Shown one piece after another: positions 5,105 through 31,050 of a stretch of DNA of 37,104 nt (within the stretch, counting starts at the first letter, position 1; every line of letters starts with the position of its first letter). The stretch lies in IMG/VR virus record IMGVR_UViG_3300005289_000070, positions 1-37,104 of that record. One strand, written 5' to 3'. The notes beneath the pieces were generated by a model. It saw only the letters and a list, made by a program, of their open reading frames with translations, did not search any database and was not told the DNA's origin. This stretch comes from a virus. A program made the translations under genes and the position numbers.

Positions 5105-8100
5105 CTACCACAGCCCTAATTTCACCCTGACAACGTTATTATCGTCATATACTGTAATTAAACTTCCACTTAATACCATTCGAGCACCAGTTGGTTTTGC
5201 AGGATCTTTATAAGTTGTTAAGGTTCCCAACTCACCAGCAATTGCACTCAATTTATCGACATTAAATAAATCAGCAGTCAATGACTTTACTTTGAAGTTT
5301 GCAGCGGTCAAATTCTTAATAAATACATCACTATTCATAATCACTTGATTATCTTGAATAATGAAAGGCATGTACTTTGTTGAAGAAGAACCAGTTGTGA
5401 AAAAGATTCTATCTGCTTGAAAACCTATAGAGCTGAATACAGTTCCATTAGTTTGTTCAGTTGCCATAGACATACCACTGAACACACCGTTATTGTCCAT
5501 TCCAAAAACATATTTACCTTTGATACCATCAATCAAATCGGCTTGAGATTTAAGCTTTACTGCATTATTTCCGTATACTGATACTAATGTTTGAAGTGCT
5601 CCTGCATAGGATCCAACTTCAGTGGTATATGTAGTTTTAAAGCTTTCAAAATCAGCGATATTGTCTGCATCTTCAATATCAATGAAATCAAGATCTACCT
5701 CACCTGCTTTACCTGAATAATTGCCGATAAAAACAGGAGTAAAGAAAGCTGCTTTGTTTGCAAATGTTTTTGGACTTAGAAGAGTTCCTGCACCAGCGCT
5801 TGCACCCGCAGATCTTCCTTTAAAATAAGCGGTACCTGTAATCCACGTACCCAACGCAGGTGCGGTACCAGCAACCAGGTAATGACTTGATCCAACATCA
5901 TTAATTTCAGTGTTGTCTTGAGCTACATATTTAGTTTTCGTTGCATTTTGACAACTTGCACCTACATACACAACGCCAGTACCGCTTACACGGCGAAATC
6001 TATACTTCACTCGATAGTATTTGTTGTCATCAATAGGTAAAGAAGCAAACCAATTTATCCAAGCTTCATCATTTCCACTATTGTTGCCAATACGGAGAGC
6101 ATATCCCCCACGACATGTAGCATCTGCAACAATTGTCATTTCAGCTTTATTACCAGAAGGTGTTTTATTCAGCCAATCTTTAAACCAAGTATCAAGTACC
6201 GAAGCCATGATTTTTTGACTGTTCGCTGAATATAACGCTGTCATACGTTCAGTTGATGAGGCAATAGCTTCATTAGTTTTTGATGAAGTTAGGTAATCAC
6301 GTTCTAAAGTAGCTTTAGTTGTTGCGGCTAGATCTTTTGCATCAGCTGCAGCTTTATTTAAGTATTCATTTACTGCCTTATCTAAATTTGCAACTTCAGT
6401 GTAGAAGATGTTAATCCTTCCCTTTAATGAGTCACGTTGAGCAGAGGTTAATGTAGTTTTAGTGGTAGTTGTGGAAATAATATCTGTGAAAAATTTAGGA
6501 GATACATTATTCAAACTATCCCAAGCTGTCTGAGCTGCCGTAACGGAAATACCCCACGGATTAGCTAAGTTCTGCAACCGGTTAAAGTTAGACTCCATAT
6601 CTTTATAGCTATTATACAAAGCAGATTTTTCAGTTGGTGTAATCACTAAATCTGACATCACATCATCAGCTATTTGCTTACCTGCAGCAGCATTTGCGGT
6701 TACGGTAGCAGACAATACGCCGTTAACTTTAACAGTATCAGCGGAAGTATTTTCAGATGTAATATCCCCTACTTTTGTCCAATCTGATGCGGTAAATGCA
6801 CCAGACGTACGCCCAACAGTTGCAACTGAAACAGTAGTTCCATTTTTCCAGATATCCCCTTGTGCGTATGGAATAGTAGGCTGTGCTGTAAATGTTTTTG
6901 ATTTACTGTTAGCACTATTTTGAGCGCTATCTGCAAGACTTTTTGCTTTTTCAGAGATTAATCGCACAAGCTCTTGTCGTGCATTATGAACATTCGCAAA
7001 ATTAGTAATAAATTGATTACGATCAATAGTACTGGTCACATTCATGTTGGCAAATAAAGCGGCCAAATAGGTATTTAACGTACTAAAAGCTGTTGCATAA
7101 GTAGTCGAAGATATCCCATAAGTAACTGCTTCAGCTCTTAAGCTAGTATCAGTTTGATAAAGCGTATCCCACACCAACTTCGCCTGTTTTTTCTCAACTG
7201 GTGTGAGTTTATTATCAGCTGCAATATCACTTAATTGAGCCATTGGAATATCAACTTTGGCTTGCGAACCTGCAGTCGTTTCCATCGCGGAAGTGACTGT
7301 AAATGGAGTTACGGATTTATAGACAGATAAATCCGTTTCAATTGCTGCTGACCAGCCATCTTTGAAGTAATCTGGTGGATTAGTATGAGTAATTGTTGCT
7401 GATTCAACTGTAATTGCTGGATAAGACCAAGCATCTTTTTTTGTTATCAAAATACATACTTTATTGTTGCTATCTAAAGCTAAAGCCAAACCTTTCGTGA
7501 TCGCATTAGTTTCATCCATTGTTATCCCAAATGAACGAGCTGTCATGTTCTGATAAAAAGGTGTGGTGGACGTATAAGCATAAAATGCTAGATCCATATC
7601 AAAAGTATTATCTTCTTTATTATTATAGTTATAACCAGAGATTTTAATCTTCGTCATGTACGCGTTAATAGTGATTGGCGTTTTAATGACTAATGTGCCT
7701 GAGGTTGTAACTGGCTGCCGCCAAGTTAAAGGTTTATCGAATATCTTTCCAGCACCTGAACTAAGAGGTTGAACGCTCATAGCAGTTGTATATTCAGATG
7801 TTAATTTCTGAGATGACGCTGCAATTGCTCTATCAATAGTTGTATTAGTAATATCAGCATTCAAAATATAAGCACTGTTTTTACTATCTAACTTTGAAGA
7901 CATCTCAACTAACTTGGCTGCCCATGATTCTTTAAAGTTTGTTAGGGTCGAAATTGAATCCGTGGCCGTAGAAACAAAATCTTGTAATGTTGGGTCGGCT
8001 GAAGCGTAATCTGTTACATCATATTGCTCAATTTGCGCTAATGTCCAAACCAAAGGTGTCGTAGCAGTAGGTGTTGCACCGCCAGCTACATAAACATGTC

Positions 8101-11100
8101 CTGAGTTTGAGAAAGAACCTGCAGCGCCACATTTAATCAATCTGATATAGGTTTCAAATTTACCAGTGCCTTCAGCACTACCTACAAATCGTTCTATAGC
8201 GCCTGTACCCATTGAGTTGCCAGCGATTACTAACTTATATCCAATAGGTAATTTGATTAAATACTTAATAATAAATACAGCATTTGCACGACCATACACG
8301 AGTTGAAAGAAACCACCCCATGTTGGATTTGCAGCTCCAATGGTTTTGATTTCCAGCTCATGTGTTGAGGTAGTCGGGTTATCAGAACTTTTAGCTATAC
8401 GTGTAACAGTAACATTCCCATTGGCAGCATTGTTATATACACCTACTCCATTATTACCCTTCTTAAAGTTCACATCTCCTTGCAATAACTTTCCATTAGT
8501 AATCATCATTGCCAGCATTGTTGTGTTTTCTAATGCCGAGCCAAGATTGTTAGTACTTGTTTGTAACTGCGAAATTTCAGTATTTTTAAGAGTTGCAAGA
8601 TCTTGTGAGGTTTGGTCAGCTGTAGCTTTTGTTGTTTTTACAACTGTAGATAATCCACCTGGTACAGCAGCATCATATTGGTTTATCTGTTGAACAATGA
8701 CACCCTTGTTAGCATCTGCTTTGATAAAGGTATCTTCTACAAACTGAGCATTTTGCTTAAGAGAAGATCTAAAACCACCTTTAAAATTTGGTGCAGAATT
8801 ACCCCGGCTGACAAACATATTTGTTATCGTAAAAGTTCCCCCTGACGGCGCATTATCAAAGCGCAACCCTAATGGAATTGCTTCAAATGCTGTTGCTTTT
8901 ACATCAGATGGGAAAATACCAGTCAATTCTATTTCACCGCTTGCAGCTACTGTAAACGTTGGCAATCCAATGCTGTAAGTTGCGCCATGAAATTGAATAC
9001 TACAAGTTGCGCCAACTAATCCAGCAGCAGCTGTATATTTGATACGAGCAACAATTGGATCACCTTTATCGATAGGAATTTCTTTATGTTTATATTGAAG
9101 TTCCCAAACGGCAACTGTTCTGTTTGTTCCTGTTGAGATACTTAAATTTTTCGTATCGTCACCAAGTAAAATCCAGTTTTCTTCTGAATACCTTAAAATA
9201 TCTAGTTGTGCTTTAAAGACCTTAATTTCTTCTGCAAATACTTCTTTCGCATCAGAACGAGTAATCTTTTCTTGAAGAATTTGAGCGTGGTTTTCTAAGA
9301 CTTTTTGTAGGTTACCACTGTTGTTTGCCAAACCAATCGGAATACCACTAACGACCTGCACGCCAAGCATGATTTGTTTGGCTCCATTCGGGCCCGTATC
9401 TGGTGTTGAATGTAATTCGATACCTCGACCTGACCCAATTCCTTTTTGACCCACCAGAATGTAAGCATCACGGCCAGTGATTTGATCAATTGTAAATGGA
9501 TTTGCACCTAGTGAAATTAATGCATTTTTTACGGTAGCAATATTTACTCCGATACTGTCGTAGTTTGTGACAATAACAAAGGTATCATTTGGAATTGCTG
9601 CGATAGCATTACTCATCGCCGTAGCATTTGCGATAGCTGCATATGTATCGTATCGAGTGGAAGTAGCTATTGACCCGTCTGCAGCAAGAACATGAACTGA
9701 AAAACCACGAGCTGAAGCAACAGATTTAATTTCACCTTTTAGGTTTTTGATACCTGTGAAAAATCCATTCCAACCACATGAATAAACACGATAGTTAAAA
9801 ACCTGTCCTAAATCTTGGTTTAATTGCTTATAACCTGATTCTAGATTTGTGATTGATTGTGTGGTGTTTTGCTGGTTATCACTGATGGTAGAGTTAATTT
9901 CTTGAAACTTGCCATCAGCAGATAATTTATTATTATCCACCGCAGATTTTAAAGTTACATAATTCTCTGAAATGGATGCAATTTGTTCACCATTCTTTTT
10001 AACATCTGCCTTGGTACCTTCAATTGCAGTCGCGTTAGCCTCTAACCCTTTTTCAAGTTCACGAGGATTTTTTCTAAAACCAGTTGCTAGCTCACCTTTT
10101 TCAATTTGAACTTCACGAATTAAAAAATCAGGTGCAAATCCAATTTGAGCATACAGAATCACATTAATATATTGTAAATCAACAAGATTAGTGTCAAATG
10201 TATAAGTACATAATACTTCTTTATCTGTCGAAATATTATTCCATGTCGTGCCAATTTGGTTGTTGCTACCTGCAGCATCACGTCGATGAATGATTAAGAA
10301 AATTTGAGTTTGTGCAGCCGTTAATGATTTAGCTTTGAACGACAACGTATACTTCTGATTCGTTTCTAAACCTTCAGCTAAAGTAATAGTCTCAATAAAG
10401 CCCTTGAAATTAGTAGTCGTATTGGTTGATTTAAAATGCCCCCAAGTAATCCCATTTGAATCCTTATAAGCTTCAAATAAGCTACCTGCTACTACTGCAT
10501 TTTGACGCCAATTTGATATTTCAAGTGGCTTAGAGAAATCACCATTTTTAATAATATTATCGCCACCACTAGTTGAAATAGCAGCTTTTATGATTTTACT
10601 TTCCTCTGCAATAGCTTGATTAGTCTCTGTTTTTGTATAACGTGTGCTATCTAGAGTCGCTGAACTATTGGTCCATAAGTCACCAAACTTTTGTCGGAAT
10701 TTGGCTTCAAGAGACTCAGTAGCGGCTGAAATTGCTTTCGTAGTATCTGACTTACTCGAATAATCAATAAGAATAGATGATTTAACGATAGTGCTATCAA
10801 TATCAGATTCATTCAAAACTGGTGAAACTTTATAGCCTTGAACTTCCCACCAACCACTTGTACCAGTATGGCCCAACGCAATACCAAAGCGTAGTTGCTG
10901 AATAGTAGTGTTAGAAGTAAAGTTCGCAACAGTTGAAACGAAATACCAATTTCCATCTTTAACTGGTAATTGAGCAGCTGGAATACTTACGGCACTATAT
11001 CGAGCAATTGTCCATAAACCGTCAGAATAACCATACATAACAGGAATGCTTAACGAACCGTTTGAGTCAGAAGAACAACGAACCCAGAAGCTAATACGGT

Positions 11101-14100
11101 AAGCTCGATCATTAGGGACTGCACTTAAGCTGTAGTTAAAGCAGTTTACAGGAACAGTTGTATCCTTTCTGAAAACTGTATTTGAAATTTTGCCTGTTGT
11201 GGTCGTTTTGAAGTACTGCTTCATGTCATAGCTATAATGGCTAATCCACTTATCAGGGTTCGCTAAGTTGTAATCAGGAATTAACGAATCACTATCATTT
11301 TCAGCTTTAATTGATTCATTCAACTTTGTAAGAGATGTATTAAATGCCTTAGTTTGTGAGGCAGTAACTTCATCTAATTTTGCATTTGTAGCGTAGTTAT
11401 TTAGAGCTTGAGCAGTGTTAAAGATATTCTTCTCTACATCTGTCATACCAACTTCAAGCTTAGATGTGCGCTGTGCTAATGCATCCCTTTCAGTAACATA
11501 TGTTTGCTTAAACTCAGTGAGATTAGCAGATACTTGATCAAAAGCTGCATTAAAGTCATATGGACTCGCAATCCAGCTGTCAGTAGTTATAAATTCCCCT
11601 TTAACCAAAACGGCCCAGTAAACAGTACCCACACTTTGCTTGTCTGCAGTAGGCTTGTTTAACATATAGAAATTGATGTACTTACCTAAGCCACTATTAC
11701 TTTTGGTAAATGTAATTTTACTAATTACTTTACCTGCTGTGCTTATTACTTGTTGTAAGAATTGGGTGCCCCCACCAGCATAAACTGCTAAATTTGAATT
11801 CGTATCGCCAGTACCCCTTACATGTTCAGCACACCATAATAATGTGTATTTGGCTCCTACCTCCCAATCTTCCCCCATTTTATAAAGTACATGAGGATAG
11901 GAAACGCCATTGTATGTTCCTACCAAATTAGAGTTAATCAATAGATTCGTACCAGCTGGGGCAGATTTGCTAAGATTAGCTGATAAGGTATTTGACTGTT
12001 CAGTAACTGCTTTAATTTGTCCAGCTTGTTCTATAACTTTTGAATCTGTTGTTTGAAGGGCTTCACTTGAGGCTTTTTTGCCAACTTCAGCATTAGTCAA
12101 AATTAAATCATTTCTTAGCTTTGAGATGTCTATACTTTGAGAAGACAAGGAATCACCTTGCTTCTTAACATCTGCTTGAGTAATTTTAATTGCCTCAGCA
12201 TTTGCGCTTAATGAGCTTTGAACATCACGTGGGCTAGGGCTCCATGCTGTAGCCTTATTTCCGGCTTCAATCTGTAGTCTTCGAATTGTAGGGATTCGTC
12301 CAGTTGTATAAGTTCCATAGAATTCAATTGTGGACTCTGTTGTACTGCCAGTATGTATTTTCGGAAAAACAGTTACTTCATACTTTTGAAATTCATTTGC
12401 CTTTGTTACAGAAACTGATGAAGAGAAGATATGTGCAGATCCATTAGATGAGTAAACCTGTACTGAACCAGCTACGGGTACACTTATTTCAAAAGAAATG
12501 GTAACCGGCTTATCTAGATTTTCATCATAAAAAGCTTTGAGCTCTTTACTTCGTTCATACATTAAGTATTCACGACTCGTTGCAGCTGTTGAGGTTCTTG
12601 GAGCTTCAGAATTGGCAACGACATTGACACCACCAACCTTAATATTTTGAACGGCTGCTGTTATGTCCGTTGAAACACGGCTCATTGCACTATCAAGATC
12701 ACTCTTAGTTACTGTTTTCAATAACGCTTCGGCGTTATTTTTAACACCAGTTTCTGTATTCTCTACCCTAGCTTCTAGTTTACTAGTCCGTTCTGCTTCA
12801 GCATCTGTGCGATTAGTTGCGGTCTTGAACAAATCATTAGCAGTTGCAGTTGAATCATTTGCAGAGGCTAAAGAATTGTTATCTTCAATGATAATGAAGT
12901 TAAGCTGACTAATACCTGGTTGAGCTGAATAGTTACCAATAAACATTGGCGCATAAAATTCGGCTTGAGCGGGAAATGTACGAGGATTATCTATTGTTCC
13001 AAGCCCCGTAGCAGCACCTGTAGACTTTCCTTTCAGATAAAGTACAACTTCTTGCCACTCACCTAAAATAGGCTTAACTGCGGACAACAAGTAGTTTGAT
13101 GACCCCATGTCTGCAGCTAGATTATTTGTAGTTGTCACATACTTTGTTTGATCTGCGGTTTTACATGCAACACCTAGATAAATACTTCCTGTTTCGCCAG
13201 AAACACGGCGGAATCGTGCGCGAACTCTATAAAGAGTATCTGGATTAATTTTTACGAATTCTTTCCAATGAACCCAAGCTTCATCATTGCCGGCATTATT
13301 CCCAAGCTCAAGAATATAACCACCCAATGCATTTGCATCTTGAATTACTTTAGCTTCACCAGTCGCACGCCAAGTAGTCCAATCTTCAATTCCTTTTGAA
13401 GTTACGACAGCACGAACACCAGAAGTCACTTGAGTTTGAGACTTTAAACTTAATAAATTTTGAGCCAGTGCTTCAGTAGCTTTTACCGCTGTTGTTCCAG
13501 TTTGCTGAGCTTCTGCTGCATTATTAAAAGCTAGCTTTGCCACATCATCAGTGGACTTAATTGAAGACGTAAGGCCAGATATTTTAGTATTTGTATTATC
13601 TTCTAATGTAGATACGCTCTTTTCTACATCGATGATTTGACCTTGAACTTTTAGATTTTCTTTAGAGATACTAGTATCTAAACTAGAAAATTTTGTAGTT
13701 GTTGCCTCTTCAAATTCTGCTAAAGATTCAGTTACTTCTTGAATATTTGCATTTGATTGTCTGTCAGCTTCTTCTAAATCTGCTTTTGTTTGATCAATAC
13801 GTAAAGATAAAGCCTTATCACCGTCAGATACGGATTTTGTGATTGTTACAAAACTTGATTCTGTTTTTGTCTTATTTGAATTGTAGTCAGTCTTAAGTTC
13901 TTCAAGCTTTTGAGCTTCAGAAACCACTTTATCATCGACAAGTTTTACCGAAGCTTCTACTTTTTCAATATATGAAGCATTACCTGTTACCTGATCACGC
14001 CAAGTTTTCGGAATAGTGTCATTTACAGCGGTAACATCCCAAACCTCATAAGAAGCAACAATTACATCAACTGGTTTTTCAACAGAAGCGACTGGCGGAT

Positions 14101-16192
14101 TAATACTATTAATCGGTCTGAAATGACCTTGAATTGTCGAACCAATATCCGGCCCACATTTGATTACAGAATAGTAAATTTCAAATTTTCCTGTTCCTTC
14201 TGCACTCCCCAAAACTTTAAGCAATCCACCAGTTCCCAAAGCATTGCCATAGGGTTGAAGTTTTAACCCTACTGGTATTTTAAGGATTTGCTTTACTAAA
14301 AAAACTTTATTGGCAGCAGCAGATAGCAAAGGCGTATTCGGGAACCAGCCCGAACCTAATAAACCTGTAGATCGAATTAGGATTTCATGTGTAGAGGTAG
14401 TTGGATTGTCAGCCGACTTCGCTTGGCGTGTATATGTAGAACCAGTTTGATTAACATATGCAGTTAAATTATTGGTATCTTTGAATGTAGGGTCATCACG
14501 GAGAGGTTTACCAAGTGACTGCATTCGAGCTAAATCATTAGCATTTAAAATATTTGAATTTGCTGTATCAAGACTTGCTTGCAATTGACCTGTTTTTTCA
14601 ACTACAGATTTATTTAGATCAACAACAGTTCGTTCAACACTATCAATAGCAGCTTTGTTATCCCCAATTTTGGATTGAGCTGCACTAATTTGTTCAGTTA
14701 TAGCTTTATCTTGAGCTGCAAGAGTTTTAATCTCATCTGTAATTAGGGCGCTTGATTTACCCAATTCATTTTGCATTTCAGCAAACTTAAGCTCAAAACT
14801 TTGAGTTAAAGCCTCTTTATCATTAGCACGTGCTTCAGCTTCGGCTAGAAAACCAGAATCGACTTTCTTATCAAGCTCAACATACTGGGCTGCAAATTCA
14901 TCTACTTTTTTAACTGCAGCTTCAGTTTGGTTTACAATTGGTTCAATCTTTTGATTAATGAGTGTATTAGTTTCCTCTCCCAAAGCTACTTTAGCTTCAT
15001 CAATCATTTGACCAGCTTTAACTAAGTTTTGATCAATATCTTGTTTTAGTGCAGCCTTTGCTTGATCTACTACAACTAGTGCTTCACCAACCTGTTTTTT
15101 ACGATCAATAATTTCTTGATCTGCAACCTTTTTCGCATTCTCTGCGACTAAACGAATTTCATCGGAATCACTACGAACATCAGCAATAATAGAATCTGTT
15201 TCTCTCTTGATTAATCCAATTTTGTCATCAAGATCTTTCTCAGCACGTATAGCTCGTTGTTGAGCATCTGCCACCAACTCCTCATTTATCTGAATTGATT
15301 GATCAATACGTTGATTTGCTTCGTCTAAACGTATATTTGCATCATTTGCATGTTGTTCAACAATCAGTTTGGTATCAATAATTTCTTGTTCAATATAAGC
15401 CCGAACTTCATCTACTTTATTTTGTGCAATCTGACCGACTTCTTTTACTTGGTCATGGATTTTTTGAACTTCTTCATCGATGTAATTGATACCTTCTTCA
15501 AGCAATTTAAAAGCTTCAGAGTCTTTGATATTTTCAATTAACTCTTCTACTTCTTTTATTTTTTCATCAATTTCTTGGCTTACTTGATCTTTATTTTCAT
15601 CAATTTTTTCACCTTGCTCTTTTAATTCTTCTTTTAGTTCCTCCAATTTATCAATTGCATCTTGAAGCGCACCTTGAAATGCTTTGGGATCAATAGGAAT
15701 TCCAGCAACCGTAAGTGTTGTACCAACAGCCATACTACCCGCTACAGCACTATTTCCAGCTACTGAAGTATCCCCTACAACAGTACTATTGCCTGTTAAT
15801 GTACTATTACCAGTTTGTTCAGTATTGGCTTGTACATTCATCAATGGCGTTTTGATCGATACGGTTGTGCCAGAATCTACTTTTAAATTTTCTTTAGAGA
15901 TAAACTCAATATTATCTTGTCGAATACGGCGCACCCCAACAATCGCGCCGTCACCGTGACTAACATAGCTATGAATAACTGGTCGCTCTTCATTGCCATT
16001 TTCAAAGAAGACATACACATCTTCTCCGTCAATAATTTGAATTTCTGTGTCTAAGTCACTATCACCTACCGGATAAGCGAAAGTTGCAGTAATACCTTCG
16101 CTTGCTCCATCAGTTAAACCATGAATGTGTACTTGTGCAGTACGACCTTTTGCGTTGTAACTTAAAATCTTTGCACGTGTGAAACCATTCAT
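5105..16192 (-). CDS. Giant central spike-fibre fusion protein (3695 aa)
   Basis: An uninterrupted 11-kb frame with TAGGTT before the ATG. Residues 1 to about 80 resemble the OB-fold of gpV/gp5-type baseplate spikes (ARAKILSYNAKG-like start, GEDVYVFFENGNEERPVI). Residues about 120-160 are a short-repeat beta helix (TGNSTLTGNSTVVG). A 400-residue coiled coil follows (about 165-560). Then come lectin-like beta modules separated by helices. Two modules are duplicated: type A at about 565-720 and 2565-2728 (shared DNPTTSTHE, GSAEGTGKFE), and type B at about 930-1104 and 3330-3510 (shared GNDEAW, FRRVSG, FIGNYS). An ILEI/PANDER-like domain lies at about 2135-2290. The last 150 residues match the end of lambda J-like fibres (DUF1983 type). 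It follows the hub gene directly. A receptor-binding axial fibre anchored by its own spike is inferred. Confidence 0.8.
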   Translation of the reverse strand: MNGFTRAKILSYNAKGRTAQVHIHGLTDGASEGITATFAYPVGDSDLDTEIQIIDGEDVYVFFENGNEERPVIHSYVSHGDGAIVGVRRIRQDNIEFISKENLKVDSGTTVSIKTPLMNVQANTEQTGNSTLTGNSTVVGDTSVAGNSAVAGSMAVGTTLTVAGIPIDPKAFQGALQDAIDKLEELKEELKEQGEKIDENKDQVSQEIDEKIKEVEELIENIKDSEAFKLLEEGINYIDEEVQKIHDQVKEVGQIAQNKVDEVRAYIEQEIIDTKLIVEQHANDANIRLDEANQRIDQSIQINEELVADAQQRAIRAEKDLDDKIGLIKRETDSIIADVRSDSDEIRLVAENAKKVADQEIIDRKKQVGEALVVVDQAKAALKQDIDQNLVKAGQMIDEAKVALGEETNTLINQKIEPIVNQTEAAVKKVDEFAAQYVELDKKVDSGFLAEAEARANDKEALTQSFELKFAEMQNELGKSSALITDEIKTLAAQDKAITEQISAAQSKIGDNKAAIDSVERTVVDLNKSVVEKTGQLQASLDTANSNILNANDLARMQSLGKPLRDDPTFKDTNNLTAYVNQTGSTYTRQAKSADNPTTSTHEILIRSTGLLGSGWFPNTPLLSAAANKVFLVKQILKIPVGLKLQPYGNALGTGGLLKVLGSAEGTGKFEIYYSVIKCGPDIGSTIQGHFRPINSINPPVASVEKPVDVIVASYEVWDVTAVNDTIPKTWRDQVTGNASYIEKVEASVKLVDDKVVSEAQKLEELKTDYNSNKTKTESSFVTITKSVSDGDKALSLRIDQTKADLEEADRQSNANIQEVTESLAEFEEATTTKFSSLDTSISKENLKVQGQIIDVEKSVSTLEDNTNTKISGLTSSIKSTDDVAKLAFNNAAEAQQTGTTAVKATEALAQNLLSLKSQTQVTSGVRAVVTSKGIEDWTTWRATGEAKVIQDANALGGYILELGNNAGNDEAWVHWKEFVKINPDTLYRVRARFRRVSGETGSIYLGVACKTADQTKYVTTTNNLAADMGSSNYLLSAVKPILGEWQEVVLYLKGKSTGAATGLGTIDNPRTFPAQAEFYAPMFIGNYSAQPGISQLNFIIIEDNNSLASANDSTATANDLFKTATNRTDAEAERTSKLEARVENTETGVKNNAEALLKTVTKSDLDSAMSRVSTDITAAVQNIKVGGVNVVANSEAPRTSTAATSREYLMYERSKELKAFYDENLDKPVTISFEISVPVAGSVQVYSSNGSAHIFSSSVSVTKANEFQKYEVTVFPKIHTGSTTESTIEFYGTYTTGRIPTIRRLQIEAGNKATAWSPSPRDVQSSLSANAEAIKITQADVKKQGDSLSSQSIDISKLRNDLILTNAEVGKKASSEALQTTDSKVIEQAGQIKAVTEQSNTLSANLSKSAPAGTNLLINSNLVGTYNGVSYPHVLYKMGEDWEVGAKYTLLWCAEHVRGTGDTNSNLAVYAGGGTQFLQQVISTAGKVISKITFTKSNSGLGKYINFYMLNKPTADKQSVGTVYWAVLVKGEFITTDSWIASPYDFNAAFDQVSANLTEFKQTYVTERDALAQRTSKLEVGMTDVEKNIFNTAQALNNYATNAKLDEVTASQTKAFNTSLTKLNESIKAENDSDSLIPDYNLANPDKWISHYSYDMKQYFKTTTTGKISNTVFRKDTTVPVNCFNYSLSAVPNDRAYRISFWVRCSSDSNGSLSIPVMYGYSDGLWTIARYSAVSIPAAQLPVKDGNWYFVSTVANFTSNTTIQQLRFGIALGHTGTSGWWEVQGYKVSPVLNESDIDSTIVKSSILIDYSSKSDTTKAISAATESLEAKFRQKFGDLWTNSSATLDSTRYTKTETNQAIAEESKIIKAAISTSGGDNIIKNGDFSKPLEISNWRQNAVVAGSLFEAYKDSNGITWGHFKSTNTTTNFKGFIETITLAEGLETNQKYTLSFKAKSLTAAQTQIFLIIHRRDAAGSNNQIGTTWNNISTDKEVLCTYTFDTNLVDLQYINVILYAQIGFAPDFLIREVQIEKGELATGFRKNPRELEKGLEANATAIEGTKADVKKNGEQIASISENYVTLKSAVDNNKLSADGKFQEINSTISDNQQNTTQSITNLESGYKQLNQDLGQVFNYRVYSCGWNGFFTGIKNLKGEIKSVASARGFSVHVLAADGSIATSTRYDTYAAIANATAMSNAIAAIPNDTFVIVTNYDSIGVNIATVKNALISLGANPFTIDQITGRDAYILVGQKGIGSGRGIELHSTPDTGPNGAKQIMLGVQVVSGIPIGLANNSGNLQKVLENHAQILQEKITRSDAKEVFAEEIKVFKAQLDILRYSEENWILLGDDTKNLSISTGTNRTVAVWELQYKHKEIPIDKGDPIVARIKYTAAAGLVGATCSIQFHGATYSIGLPTFTVAASGEIELTGIFPSDVKATAFEAIPLGLRFDNAPSGGTFTITNMFVSRGNSAPNFKGGFRSSLKQNAQFVEDTFIKADANKGVIVQQINQYDAAVPGGLSTVVKTTKATADQTSQDLATLKNTEISQLQTSTNNLGSALENTTMLAMMITNGKLLQGDVNFKKGNNGVGVYNNAANGNVTVTRIAKSSDNPTTSTHELEIKTIGAANPTWGGFFQLVYGRANAVFIIKYLIKLPIGYKLVIAGNSMGTGAIERFVGSAEGTGKFETYIRLIKCGAAGSFSNSGHVYVAGGATPTATTPLVWTLAQIEQYDVTDYASADPTLQDFVSTATDSISTLTNFKESWAAKLVEMSSKLDSKNSAYILNADITNTTIDRAIAASSQKLTSEYTTAMSVQPLSSGAGKIFDKPLTWRQPVTTSGTLVIKTPITINAYMTKIKISGYNYNNKEDNTFDMDLAFYAYTSTTPFYQNMTARSFGITMDETNAITKGLALALDSNNKVCILITKKDAWSYPAITVESATITHTNPPDYFKDGWSAAIETDLSVYKSVTPFTVTSAMETTAGSQAKVDIPMAQLSDIAADNKLTPVEKKQAKLVWDTLYQTDTSLRAEAVTYGISSTTYATAFSTLNTYLAALFANMNVTSTIDRNQFITNFANVHNARQELVRLISEKAKSLADSAQNSANSKSKTFTAQPTIPYAQGDIWKNGTTVSVATVGRTSGAFTASDWTKVGDITSENTSADTVKVNGVLSATVTANAAAGKQIADDVMSDLVITPTEKSALYNSYKDMESNFNRLQNLANPWGISVTAAQTAWDSLNNVSPKFFTDIISTTTTKTTLTSAQRDSLKGRINIFYTEVANLDKAVNEYLNKAAADAKDLAATTKATLERDYLTSSKTNEAIASSTERMTALYSANSQKIMASVLDTWFKDWLNKTPSGNKAEMTIVADATCRGGYALRIGNNSGNDEAWINWFASLPIDDNKYYRVKYRFRRVSGTGVVYVGASCQNATKTKYVAQDNTEINDVGSSHYLVAGTAPALGTWITGTAYFKGRSAGASAGAGTLLSPKTFANKAAFFTPVFIGNYSGKAGEVDLDFIDIEDADNIADFESFKTTYTTEVGSYAGALQTLVSVYGNNAVKLKSQADLIDGIKGKYVFGMDNNGVFSGMSMATEQTNGTVFSSIGFQADRIFFTTGSSSTKYMPFIIQDNQVIMNSDVFIKNLTAANFKVKSLTADLFNVDKLSAIAGELGTLTTYKDPAKPTGARMVLSGSLITVYDDNNVVRVKLGLW

Positions 16193-29058: not shown

Positions 29059-31050
29059 TTAATCATTTTGATTTTCAGCCGCTTCTCTTAAAGCACTGAA
29101 TCTTGACTTGCGTTCTGCCTGTTCACGGCCTTCTGGCGTATCATCTGTAACATTTGCTGTTTCATAAGCCTCTGTGTAGTGAACGTTCTCAAGGAATAAG
29201 AAAGCAAATGCATCACCTAAATCGGGCGACTTAATTCCCATCCGTTTCATTTCATCTTTACTCAAAATTTTGTAACGAGCAAAGTCATCAAAGCGATAAG
29301 GAATGTGAATCAACTGATCTTTAATTTTTACATGATGCTTTTTAGTTTTCACCTTGAAACGGCCACTTACTACTGCTCGAGCAAATCCAACATATGCCAA
29401 AGAACGCTTATTAGTAAATTCTTTACGGTTATCATTACTAAAACATTGAGATCCCCAATAAACAGGAACATAGAAAATACCTTGCTTTTTAAGGTACTGT
29501 CCAAGACCTTTACCAGCGCCGTTATCATCAACAACTAAGTTTGCATTTGGATATTGTAAAAGTAGCTCATTAATTTTTGCGAACAGCTCAAGAATATCGT
29601 CTCTATTTTTACATAGCGGTATATCGATAACTTCAACACGGCGGGCCCTTTCACCCCATTGTGCCTCACCCCATACTTTACTCACGGCAATAACTGAGTC
29701 ATCTCGGCCAACACCACCACCAACGTCAACAGTAATGACATATCCGAATTGGTGTTCATCAAAAATACTCGCGCCTACATACATTTCTTCTGTCTGACGC
29801 TTAGTAATTAAGAACTCATCTGATAAATCAGGAAATTCACCAAGTACACGGATCTTGTACTGAGCATCTTCACGGCTACCATATTTTTGCCGTTGTTCTT
29901 CTAGTGATTGCTTACTTACAAGGGGTGATTCCTCCCCGTTGAAAGTTAAAGCAATCCATACCCCTCCTGCTCGATGACTTAACTTGTGATGTGTCTCATA
30001 GAACATACCCGCGTTACGGGTAGGCTGAGAGGTCATTACTGCACGGTTATCTTCGTGCGTTAAGGCACCAAACGCCACATCAAGTACGGCATCATCTACA
30101 CCGCTGGCCTCATCGACCCAGACCATGTAGTTATCGCCGTGGTTACCAGCTAAGTTTGTAGGTTGATGTTTCGGTGCTGTCTTAGCAAAGACATACCATT
30201 TTTCTTTGTAGCCTTTGATGTATACGAGTTCTGACTGGTACCCAACATAATCAGCAAGCCAAGCCAAAGGCCCTTGCTTCAATCGTGCTAGATTGATACT
30301 GATTTCTTTCCATACTTGTTTTTTTAACTGCCCAATCTGTGGAGCAGTAAACATCATGATGGATTCATCAAAAAACAAGAGATGCCATAAGGCAACAATA
30401 CCGGCACTGGCCGTTTTACCAGTGTTATGTAGTACTAAGTCATCCTCCCCTAGGAAGAAAGGATCTGGATCGAGTACAAAACCGTAATATTTACCTTCAC
30501 CCAGCTCGGCAACCGATGTGATTTTTAAAGGCTCATGTTCCCCATCAACAAGCCTATATGATGCAAACTGTTCTCTATTTTCTGGCTTTAGGTTCATGTA
30601 TTGAGAAACAAGCAATTCAATCTTGTCGCCCTTTGACCAGCCGTTACCATCGTATAAAGATATTAAACAAAGGATGTGTGATTTATTGAATGTATGAGCC
30701 TTACCGTTCTCATATTCAAACCGGTACATTTCCTGATAACCGGTTACTGTTTTAATTACATCTAGTTCTGTCTTACCATCTGCAGCAAGGATCTTATGAT
30801 TTAAATTAATACGCTCAACTGGGATAAATTCCCCATTGGCTAATTTGATTAATGTCCCTTTGCCAAAACAACCGTGACCAGATGCTACTGATGTACGGCT
30901 ACCATCAAATGCAATAGATTCAAAAAGTAATTCTTGTTGCCACGTGGGTTCGACACCTAATGCTTCTACGGCGAAAGCATAGATGTCGTATCGATAACGC
31001 TCACAAAGTTCCCACCATTCGGGAATTTCTTTTAATGGTGCTAAAGCCAT
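29059..31050 (-). CDS. terL: Terminase large subunit interrupted by an in-frame intein
   Basis: A 663-residue precursor; removing residues 61-209 gives a 514-residue terminase, the normal size. The ATPase part has the Walker A loop rebuilt as SGHG plus TGKT across the splice site, and Walker B VWVDEA (Asp313, Glu314). The nuclease part has an RNase H-like arrangement of acidic residues: Asp442 in TVDVGGG, Asp508-Asp509 in LVVDDNGAGKG, and Asp610/Asp613 in SPDLGDAF. The motor translocates DNA into the prohead through the portal and the nuclease cuts it. It lies in an operon behind the TraR-like gene and an unknown gene that may be the small subunit. Without splicing the ATP site is split, so the intein must leave for packaging. 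Confidence 0.93.
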   Translation of the reverse strand: MALAPLKEIPEWWELCERYRYDIYAFAVEALGVEPTWQQELLFESIAFDGSRTSVASGHGCFGKGTLIKLANGEFIPVERINLNHKILAADGKTELDVIKTVTGYQEMYRFEYENGKAHTFNKSHILCLISLYDGNGWSKGDKIELLVSQYMNLKPENREQFASYRLVDGEHEPLKITSVAELGEGKYYGFVLDPDPFFLGEDDLVLHNTGKTASAGIVALWHLLFFDESIMMFTAPQIGQLKKQVWKEISINLARLKQGPLAWLADYVGYQSELVYIKGYKEKWYVFAKTAPKHQPTNLAGNHGDNYMVWVDEASGVDDAVLDVAFGALTHEDNRAVMTSQPTRNAGMFYETHHKLSHRAGGVWIALTFNGEESPLVSKQSLEEQRQKYGSREDAQYKIRVLGEFPDLSDEFLITKRQTEEMYVGASIFDEHQFGYVITVDVGGGVGRDDSVIAVSKVWGEAQWGERARRVEVIDIPLCKNRDDILELFAKINELLLQYPNANLVVDDNGAGKGLGQYLKKQGIFYVPVYWGSQCFSNDNRKEFTNKRSLAYVGFARAVVSGRFKVKTKKHHVKIKDQLIHIPYRFDDFARYKILSKDEMKRMGIKSPDLGDAFAFLFLENVHYTEAYETANVTDDTPEGREQAERKSRFSALREAAENQND
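30424..30870 (-). other. Mini-intein (149 aa) inserted in terminase Walker A
   Basis: Starts with Cys61 in CFGKGTLIKLANGEFIPVE, a textbook N-terminal splicing block, with a His-containing second block near NKSHILC. It ends YYGFVLDPDPFFLGEDDLVLHN before Thr210, a textbook C-terminal block with the His-Asn pair. The first C-extein residue is Thr. There is no room for a homing endonuclease. The inserted point is between Gly60 and Thr210, inside the G-x-x-x-x-G-K-T loop. Both junctions were checked in the base sequence: TGT at 30868-30870 and AAC at 30424-30426. Confidence 0.93.

Follow-up and report, generated by a model that had tools for sequence, protein, structure and literature searches.

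An endonuclease-free VMA1/Prp8-like intein in the terminase P-loop of an Acinetobacter phage lineage

The large terminase gene in a 37-kb virus record (the whole stretch of 37,104 nucleotides analysed here, hereafter 'the window') is interrupted within its ATP-binding loop by a mini-intein of 149 residues. We consider it highly probable that this is a class 1 intein of the VMA1/Prp8 (Hom_end_hint) type, which derives from a LAGLIDADG-bearing phage intein homing to P-loops, has lost its endonuclease, has become fixed and vertically inherited, and must splice itself out before DNA can be packaged. The terminase gene and the genes following it match those of Acinetobacter phage vB_AbaM_ABMM1, with the gene order kept, and the same intein occurs widely among the prophages of a hospital pathogen.

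The interrupted terminase gene

The features of the locus, all on the minus strand, are the following:

29059..31050, minus strand: 663-aa precursor, intein included, of a P1 PacB-like large terminase (PHROG 2, terminase large subunit, 4.8e-39; Pfam Terminase_6N, 1.4e-4)
30871..31050, minus strand: N-extein, residues 1-60, with the P-loop ASGHG at its end (from alignment with the intein-free L090 and L091)
30424..30870, minus strand: mini-intein, 149 aa, residues 61-209, without endonuclease domain (Hom_end_hint match above cut-off, confident AlphaFold model, Foldseek match to the Prp8 intein)
30868..30870, minus strand: C1 of block A, the first nucleophile (no variant among the 47 alleles of 149 aa)
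30676..30687, minus strand: block B, reading N62-K-S-H65, NxxH rather than TxxH (N62 and H65 invariant; Asn likewise in yeast VMA1, PMC6805012)
30667..30669, minus strand: Cys68, the sole cysteine besides C1 (kept in 31 of 31 family members examined)
30424..30429, minus strand: block G, with His148 next to last and Asn149 at the end (both unchanged in all 47 alleles)
30412..30423, minus strand: T+1-G-K-T, the remainder of Walker A, with Thr as putative second nucleophile (invariant)
29062..30423, minus strand: C-extein with Walker B (WVDEAS), the TSQPT motif and nuclease residues (VDVGGGVGRDD, VVDDNGAGKG, SPDLGDAFAF), motifs located in both the window and ABMM1

Residues 1-60 and 210-663 of the ORF align with large terminases of the P1 PacB type, with 30% identity to P1 PacB across both exteins. 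Judged by its motifs, the terminase is intact apart from the intein, retaining WVDEAS, TSQPT and the nuclease motifs; with the Walker A motif that splicing would complete and the homology to PacB, it has every mark of a PacB-like enzyme. PHROG 34449, a phage family of 241 positions listed with function unknown, matches residues 1-241 of the ORF, a stretch made up of N-extein, intein and P-loop, and so represents an intein-interrupted terminase fragment. Elsewhere in the window, a 3695-aa tail/baseplate spike protein (5105-16192, minus strand) takes up nearly one third of the length.

The insert is 447 nt long and in frame (ASGHG/C...HN/TGKT, the slash marking the splice points here and below), and intein-free relatives read continuously ASGHGTGKT. 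On the DNA level, the window carries GGTCACGGT, then TGT...AAC, then ACTGGTAAAAC, whereas in the empty allele L090 GGTCACGGT is joined directly to ACTGGTAAAAC; the site is empty at exactly the intein point in L090, L091, L168, L174 and L177. A preliminary description of this DNA had proposed that an endonuclease-free intein at 30424-30870 splits the ATP-binding loop of the terminase and that the joined product is SGHGTGKT. The coordinates proved exact: in L090 and L091 the P-loop runs uninterrupted through this very point, and the intein-free homologues possess the same joined loop.

The intein starts with CFGKGT and ends with LVLHN/T. Across 47 distinct alleles of 149 aa, no variation was observed in C1, N62, H65, C68, H148 and N149 or in the flanking SGHG and TGKT. 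An exact in-frame insertion, Cys at position 1, His-Asn at the C-terminus, Thr at +1 and a predicted HINT fold place it in class 1; the +1 nucleophile and the terminal Asn, both retained, set it apart from bacterial intein-like (BIL) domains, and a Pfam scan of the 149 residues gave no match to LAGLIDADG or HNH families, so that the embedded endonuclease of a full-length homing intein is lacking. The catalytic Cys, His-Asn and Thr had been described as intact, and C1, His148-Asn149 and Thr+1 are indeed present. Two further details are that block B (NKSH) keeps the His of TxxH but has Asn for its Thr, a replacement shared with yeast VMA1, and that the consensus His of block F is replaced by Pro (DPDPFFLGEDDLVLHN). 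In the sister clade the latter position is occupied by Ala or Ser, and His is retained in some plasmid and phage relatives. Inteins of the Prp8/VMA1 type also deviate from the consensus at blocks B and F (PMC6805012); the two replacements could make splicing slower.

The same replacements would suit another explanation, namely that the insert is an inactive or cleavage-only, BIL-like HINT domain in the broken terminase of a defective prophage. Some prophage copies are indeed broken: one, L071/L162, has a one-base frameshift just 3' of the P-loop, and L293, a relic in another genome, has the P-loop and the intein ends deleted. The nucleophiles, His148-Asn149 and Thr+1 are nevertheless invariant in the 47 alleles, pN/pS is 0.07, and the infectious ABMM1 encodes this precursor too, all of which make this explanation very improbable.

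ABMM1 was isolated from wastewater, forms plaques, lysogenises A. baumannii and was predicted to package DNA by the headful mechanism (ABMM1 paper); the word intein is absent from the main text of that paper. Its precursor differs from that of the window in 19 of 663 residues, with the intein the same, and tblastn detected one terminase locus in its record, so the intein lies inside the only large terminase detected. In vivo splicing in this plaque-forming phage is thus very likely to be efficient. Likewise, the position of the intein in the P-loop of an infectious phage strongly suggests that splicing is a precondition of packaging, and the earlier proposal that it is obligatory was sound.

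Splicing would begin with an N-S acyl shift at Cys1, followed by transesterification to Thr+1; cyclisation of Asn149 and ligation of the exteins would then restore the Walker A motif SGHGTGKT, and only afterwards could the terminase bind ATP and package DNA. From the sequence, the peptide across the ligated junction would be TSVASGHGTGK and that of the precursor TSVASGHGCFGK. The Thr of TGKT offers a ready-made +1 nucleophile, which helps to explain why inteins settle at P-loops. The persistence of the intein may be ascribed to the facts that its removal must be exact and that failure of splicing kills packaging. It should be noted for annotation that exteins ought to be joined before use, as trees and predictions of packaging type made from the unspliced precursor can mislead.

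Affinity to fungal nuclear inteins and to other P-loop inteins

With the intein alone as query, Pfam Hom_end_hint (PF05203) scored 37.1 bits against a curated cut-off of 32.1, and this family also matches 9/9 members of our set A2. In hmmsearch against solved structures, Prp8 inteins came first (2.5e-21), then VMA1 (1e-17 to 1e-14), the next being gp41-1 at 0.004. AlphaFold prediction from the single sequence was unusable (pLDDT 45), whereas an alignment of 25 sequences gave a HINT fold with pLDDT 93.4. Foldseek returned 66 PDB matches to this model at E <= 0.001, the best 50 of the 66 consisting almost entirely of inteins and related HINT domains, headed by Prp8 inteins (1.8e-11), PI-SceI domain I (2.6e-9) and gp41-1 (6e-7), with other inteins after them. 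The Hom_end_hint score and the best hmmsearch and Foldseek matches put the identification as an intein far above chance. Among 398 Pseudomonadota genomes, Pfam Intein_splicing was found in 21 and the window-intein profile in 6, with only 2 genomes common to both; besides the Acinetobacter prophage itself, the strong matches to this profile were three SF2 helicase inteins at the P-loop PTG/SGK. The rankings by profile and by fold, and the small overlap with Intein_splicing, therefore indicate a distinct, VMA1/Prp8-like type. Sequence and predicted structure agree that, among solved structures, the window intein is closest to those of fungal Prp8 and yeast VMA1; fungal versus bacterial affinity was judged here by profile scores, since a tree built on roughly 145 columns, with 3.3 changes per column on the Prp8 branch, could hardly decide the question of descent.

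The mini-intein of Cryptococcus Prp8 (6mwy, 6mx6) is the top solved structure by both sequence and fold (TM 0.82/0.91). Like that of the window, it has C1 and the terminal HN and is without the block-F His; unlike it, it resides in a spliceosome protein, has THNH in block B and possesses a longer linker. Yeast VMA1 PI-SceI starts with CFAKGT, compared with CFGKGT in the window, shares the block-B Asn and interrupts the same Walker A register (G/CG versus G/TG), but is 454 aa long, with an active endonuclease and a DNA-binding region, a V-ATPase host and Cys at +1. In the yeast precursor structure 9cop, G283 precedes the intein and C738-G739 follow it, which is the register of G/TG in the window. 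We take the glycine G283 to be part of the V-ATPase P-loop.

Inteins in terminase P-loops are already known from mycobacteriophages, and the window intein is a further one of this kind. TerL1-a and TerL1-b (Kelley et al. 2016, PMC5050341) likewise interrupt the ATPase loop of phage large terminases, and some contain LAGLIDADG; splicing and endonuclease activity have been shown for these P-loop inteins, and five mycobacteriophage TerL inteins splice readily in an E. coli reporter (PMC5050341). The TerL1-a site is the P-loop Lys/Thr and that of TerL1-b is one residue off (PMC5050341), whereas the window intein, at G/TGKT, lies three residues N-terminal to the a site and thus outside both allele groups; it is also without an endonuclease and belongs to another, P1 PacB-like, terminase lineage. 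TerL1-b of phage Baka matches the full-length intein L259 with 32% identity. Phage and bacterial SF2 helicases (e.g. Salmonella phage Ent1 gp34) contain LAGLIDADG inteins of the same family as the full-length TerL inteins (36-42% across 346 aa), again in the P-loop, although in a different host protein, at GxGK/T in the phage copies and PTG/SGK in those of bacterial genomes; the copies in Salmonella phages are already annotated as inteins. One helicase ORF (L294, genome G299) combines a LAGLIDADG intein at PTG/SGKS with a second intein-like start at Walker B (VDECFMTGTPV), and Ruegeria phages (L418) carry an unannotated mini-intein of the same type in a tail tape measure protein (AGKG/CHAPGH...HHN/TLQ).

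More interesting than a further terminase intein is the link with fungal nuclear inteins. That VMA1 and Prp8 inteins may be more closely related to one another than either is to most inteins outside nuclear genes has been noted before (PMC1635734). We tentatively raise the possibility, doubtful as it still is, that phage and bacterial P-loop inteins of terminases and SF2 helicases were the source lineage of the fungal nuclear inteins, first of VMA1, which would have retained the G/xGK register, and then of Prp8, the window intein being an endonuclease-free side branch. If the affinity to VMA1 and Prp8 reflects descent, phages would be implicated as a source of fungal nuclear inteins. In the titles and abstracts of the non-subscription papers covered by our literature search, the fungal VMA1/Prp8 inteins were not linked with phage terminase inteins.

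Selection and inheritance in the window's clade

In 37 distinct alleles of the window's clade, pS was practically the same in intein and extein (0.260 vs 0.261) and pN/pS was 0.072 in the intein vs 0.028 in the extein, the pN of the intein being 2.5 times that of the extein. Distances between inteins correlated with those of the two flanks (r = 0.76 and 0.72; 0.70 flank vs flank), and the Mantel correlation between intein and flanks was 0.67, with 0/2000 permutations as high. Equal synonymous divergence and distances that track those of the flanks indicate vertical inheritance; in this clade, the intein is under strong purifying selection. Pattern scans of viral contigs of the clade revealed 81 filled sites and 1 empty, a count of contigs, many from close hospital strains, rather than of 82 independent events. 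The intein thus looks fixed in the window's clade, as the preliminary description had allowed.

The alternative offered there, mobility with the help of another enzyme, would mean that a LAGLIDADG enzyme of another intein or of a free-standing gene cuts empty alleles so that the intein is copied in. Potential helpers exist, as this site is filled by endonuclease-bearing inteins in some relatives (L092 in A. boissieri, L259) and the L092 intein, whose extein stands beside the intein-free L090/L091 and which itself groups with L259, was probably acquired laterally. Against this, the equal synonymous divergence of intein and extein and their common distance pattern give no sign of recent copying in the window's clade, and no homing endonuclease was found among the window ORFs scanned with Pfam; for this clade, we regard assisted mobility as quite unlikely.

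It had also been suggested that splicing acts as a timing, redox or temperature switch for packaging, and one may conceive of a domesticated intein, retained by selection because such a cue, or a metal, gates splicing and thus packaging. Strong purifying selection and near-fixation in the absence of an endonuclease are in line with this, and splicing of the related Cne Prp8 intein was reported to be inhibited by copper and zinc (PMC6805012). Purifying selection cannot discriminate between a switch and plain splicing, because an intein that fails to splice would in either case destroy the terminase and with it packaging. Moreover, the intein has two cysteines only, C1 and C68, of which C68 is also invariant in endonuclease-bearing, mobile relatives and therefore points to no special adaptation in the window intein; two relatives, L090 and L091, have nearly the same exteins and no intein, and the raised pN of the intein also speaks against a switch. 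Beyond the analogy with Prp8 the idea found no support, and it is unlikely. The simplest reading is that of a fixed, vertical intein whose splicing is maintained by selection on the terminase, and which would have no present function beyond its own removal.

A homing cycle at one site

The relatives form a dense series covering a whole homing cycle at one site, from the empty state through mobile and eroded inteins to the fixed mini-intein and a probable re-invasion. Besides the five empty alleles, it comprises LAGLIDADG-containing full-length inteins, about 340 aa long (L092 from A. boissieri, L259-L265 and L267-L269), inteins with an eroded endonuclease in which LAGLIDTDG has decayed (L095 from a Pseudomonas plasmid, and L270), and mini-inteins (that of the window, those of many Acinetobacter prophages and plasmids, L271 and L274). 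Full-length inteins are 55-79% alike while their host terminases are mostly 30-38% alike; in mini-inteins this is reversed (35-54%, with host exteins 52-84% alike), a contrast that suggests lateral spread with the endonuclease and slow vertical drift without it. The ancestor may accordingly be pictured as a LAGLIDADG-bearing phage intein homing to the terminase P-loop G/(T or S)GK, with loss of the endonuclease, fixation and vertical inheritance following in the Acinetobacter phage clade.

The window's clade of five was recovered in both the extein and the intein tree (support 95 and 96). L092 is found with the empty alleles L090/L091 and with L166 by its extein (98), but with L259 by its intein (92), a conflict pointing to invasion by an active copy. 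No fewer than three lines (the window's clade, L271/L274 and L095/L270) have most likely lost the endonuclease or seen it decay; the trees are quick ones with SH-aLRT support and, the inteins being short, the intein tree has weakly supported deep branches and open forks. Two related terminase mini-inteins, L276 and L277, end with Ser-Asn (VFSN/TGKS) instead of His-Asn, and L263 ends with Arg-Asn. A match from Salmonella phage 66FD starting within the intein was set aside as an intein-containing terminase of another lineage, with the junction GHGIGK.

Long spans in L052, L058, L061 and L088 suggested an additional insertion or an intron within the terminase, which was rejected because they proved to be due to a separate downstream ORF, a terminase paralogue. 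In L052 (7068-8435), L080 and L088 (7067-7831), this intein-free paralogue (25% identity) directly follows the intein-bearing terminase and is a pseudo-terminase, with Walker A destroyed (SVKYGWGCNDSM, SVKYGWGCDEAM) and the DE of Walker B lost; it is absent from the window. At the place of the paralogue, L058 (7095-7874), L061 (7056-7889) and L085 possess an ORF of 259-277 aa resembling the terminase nuclease domain only.
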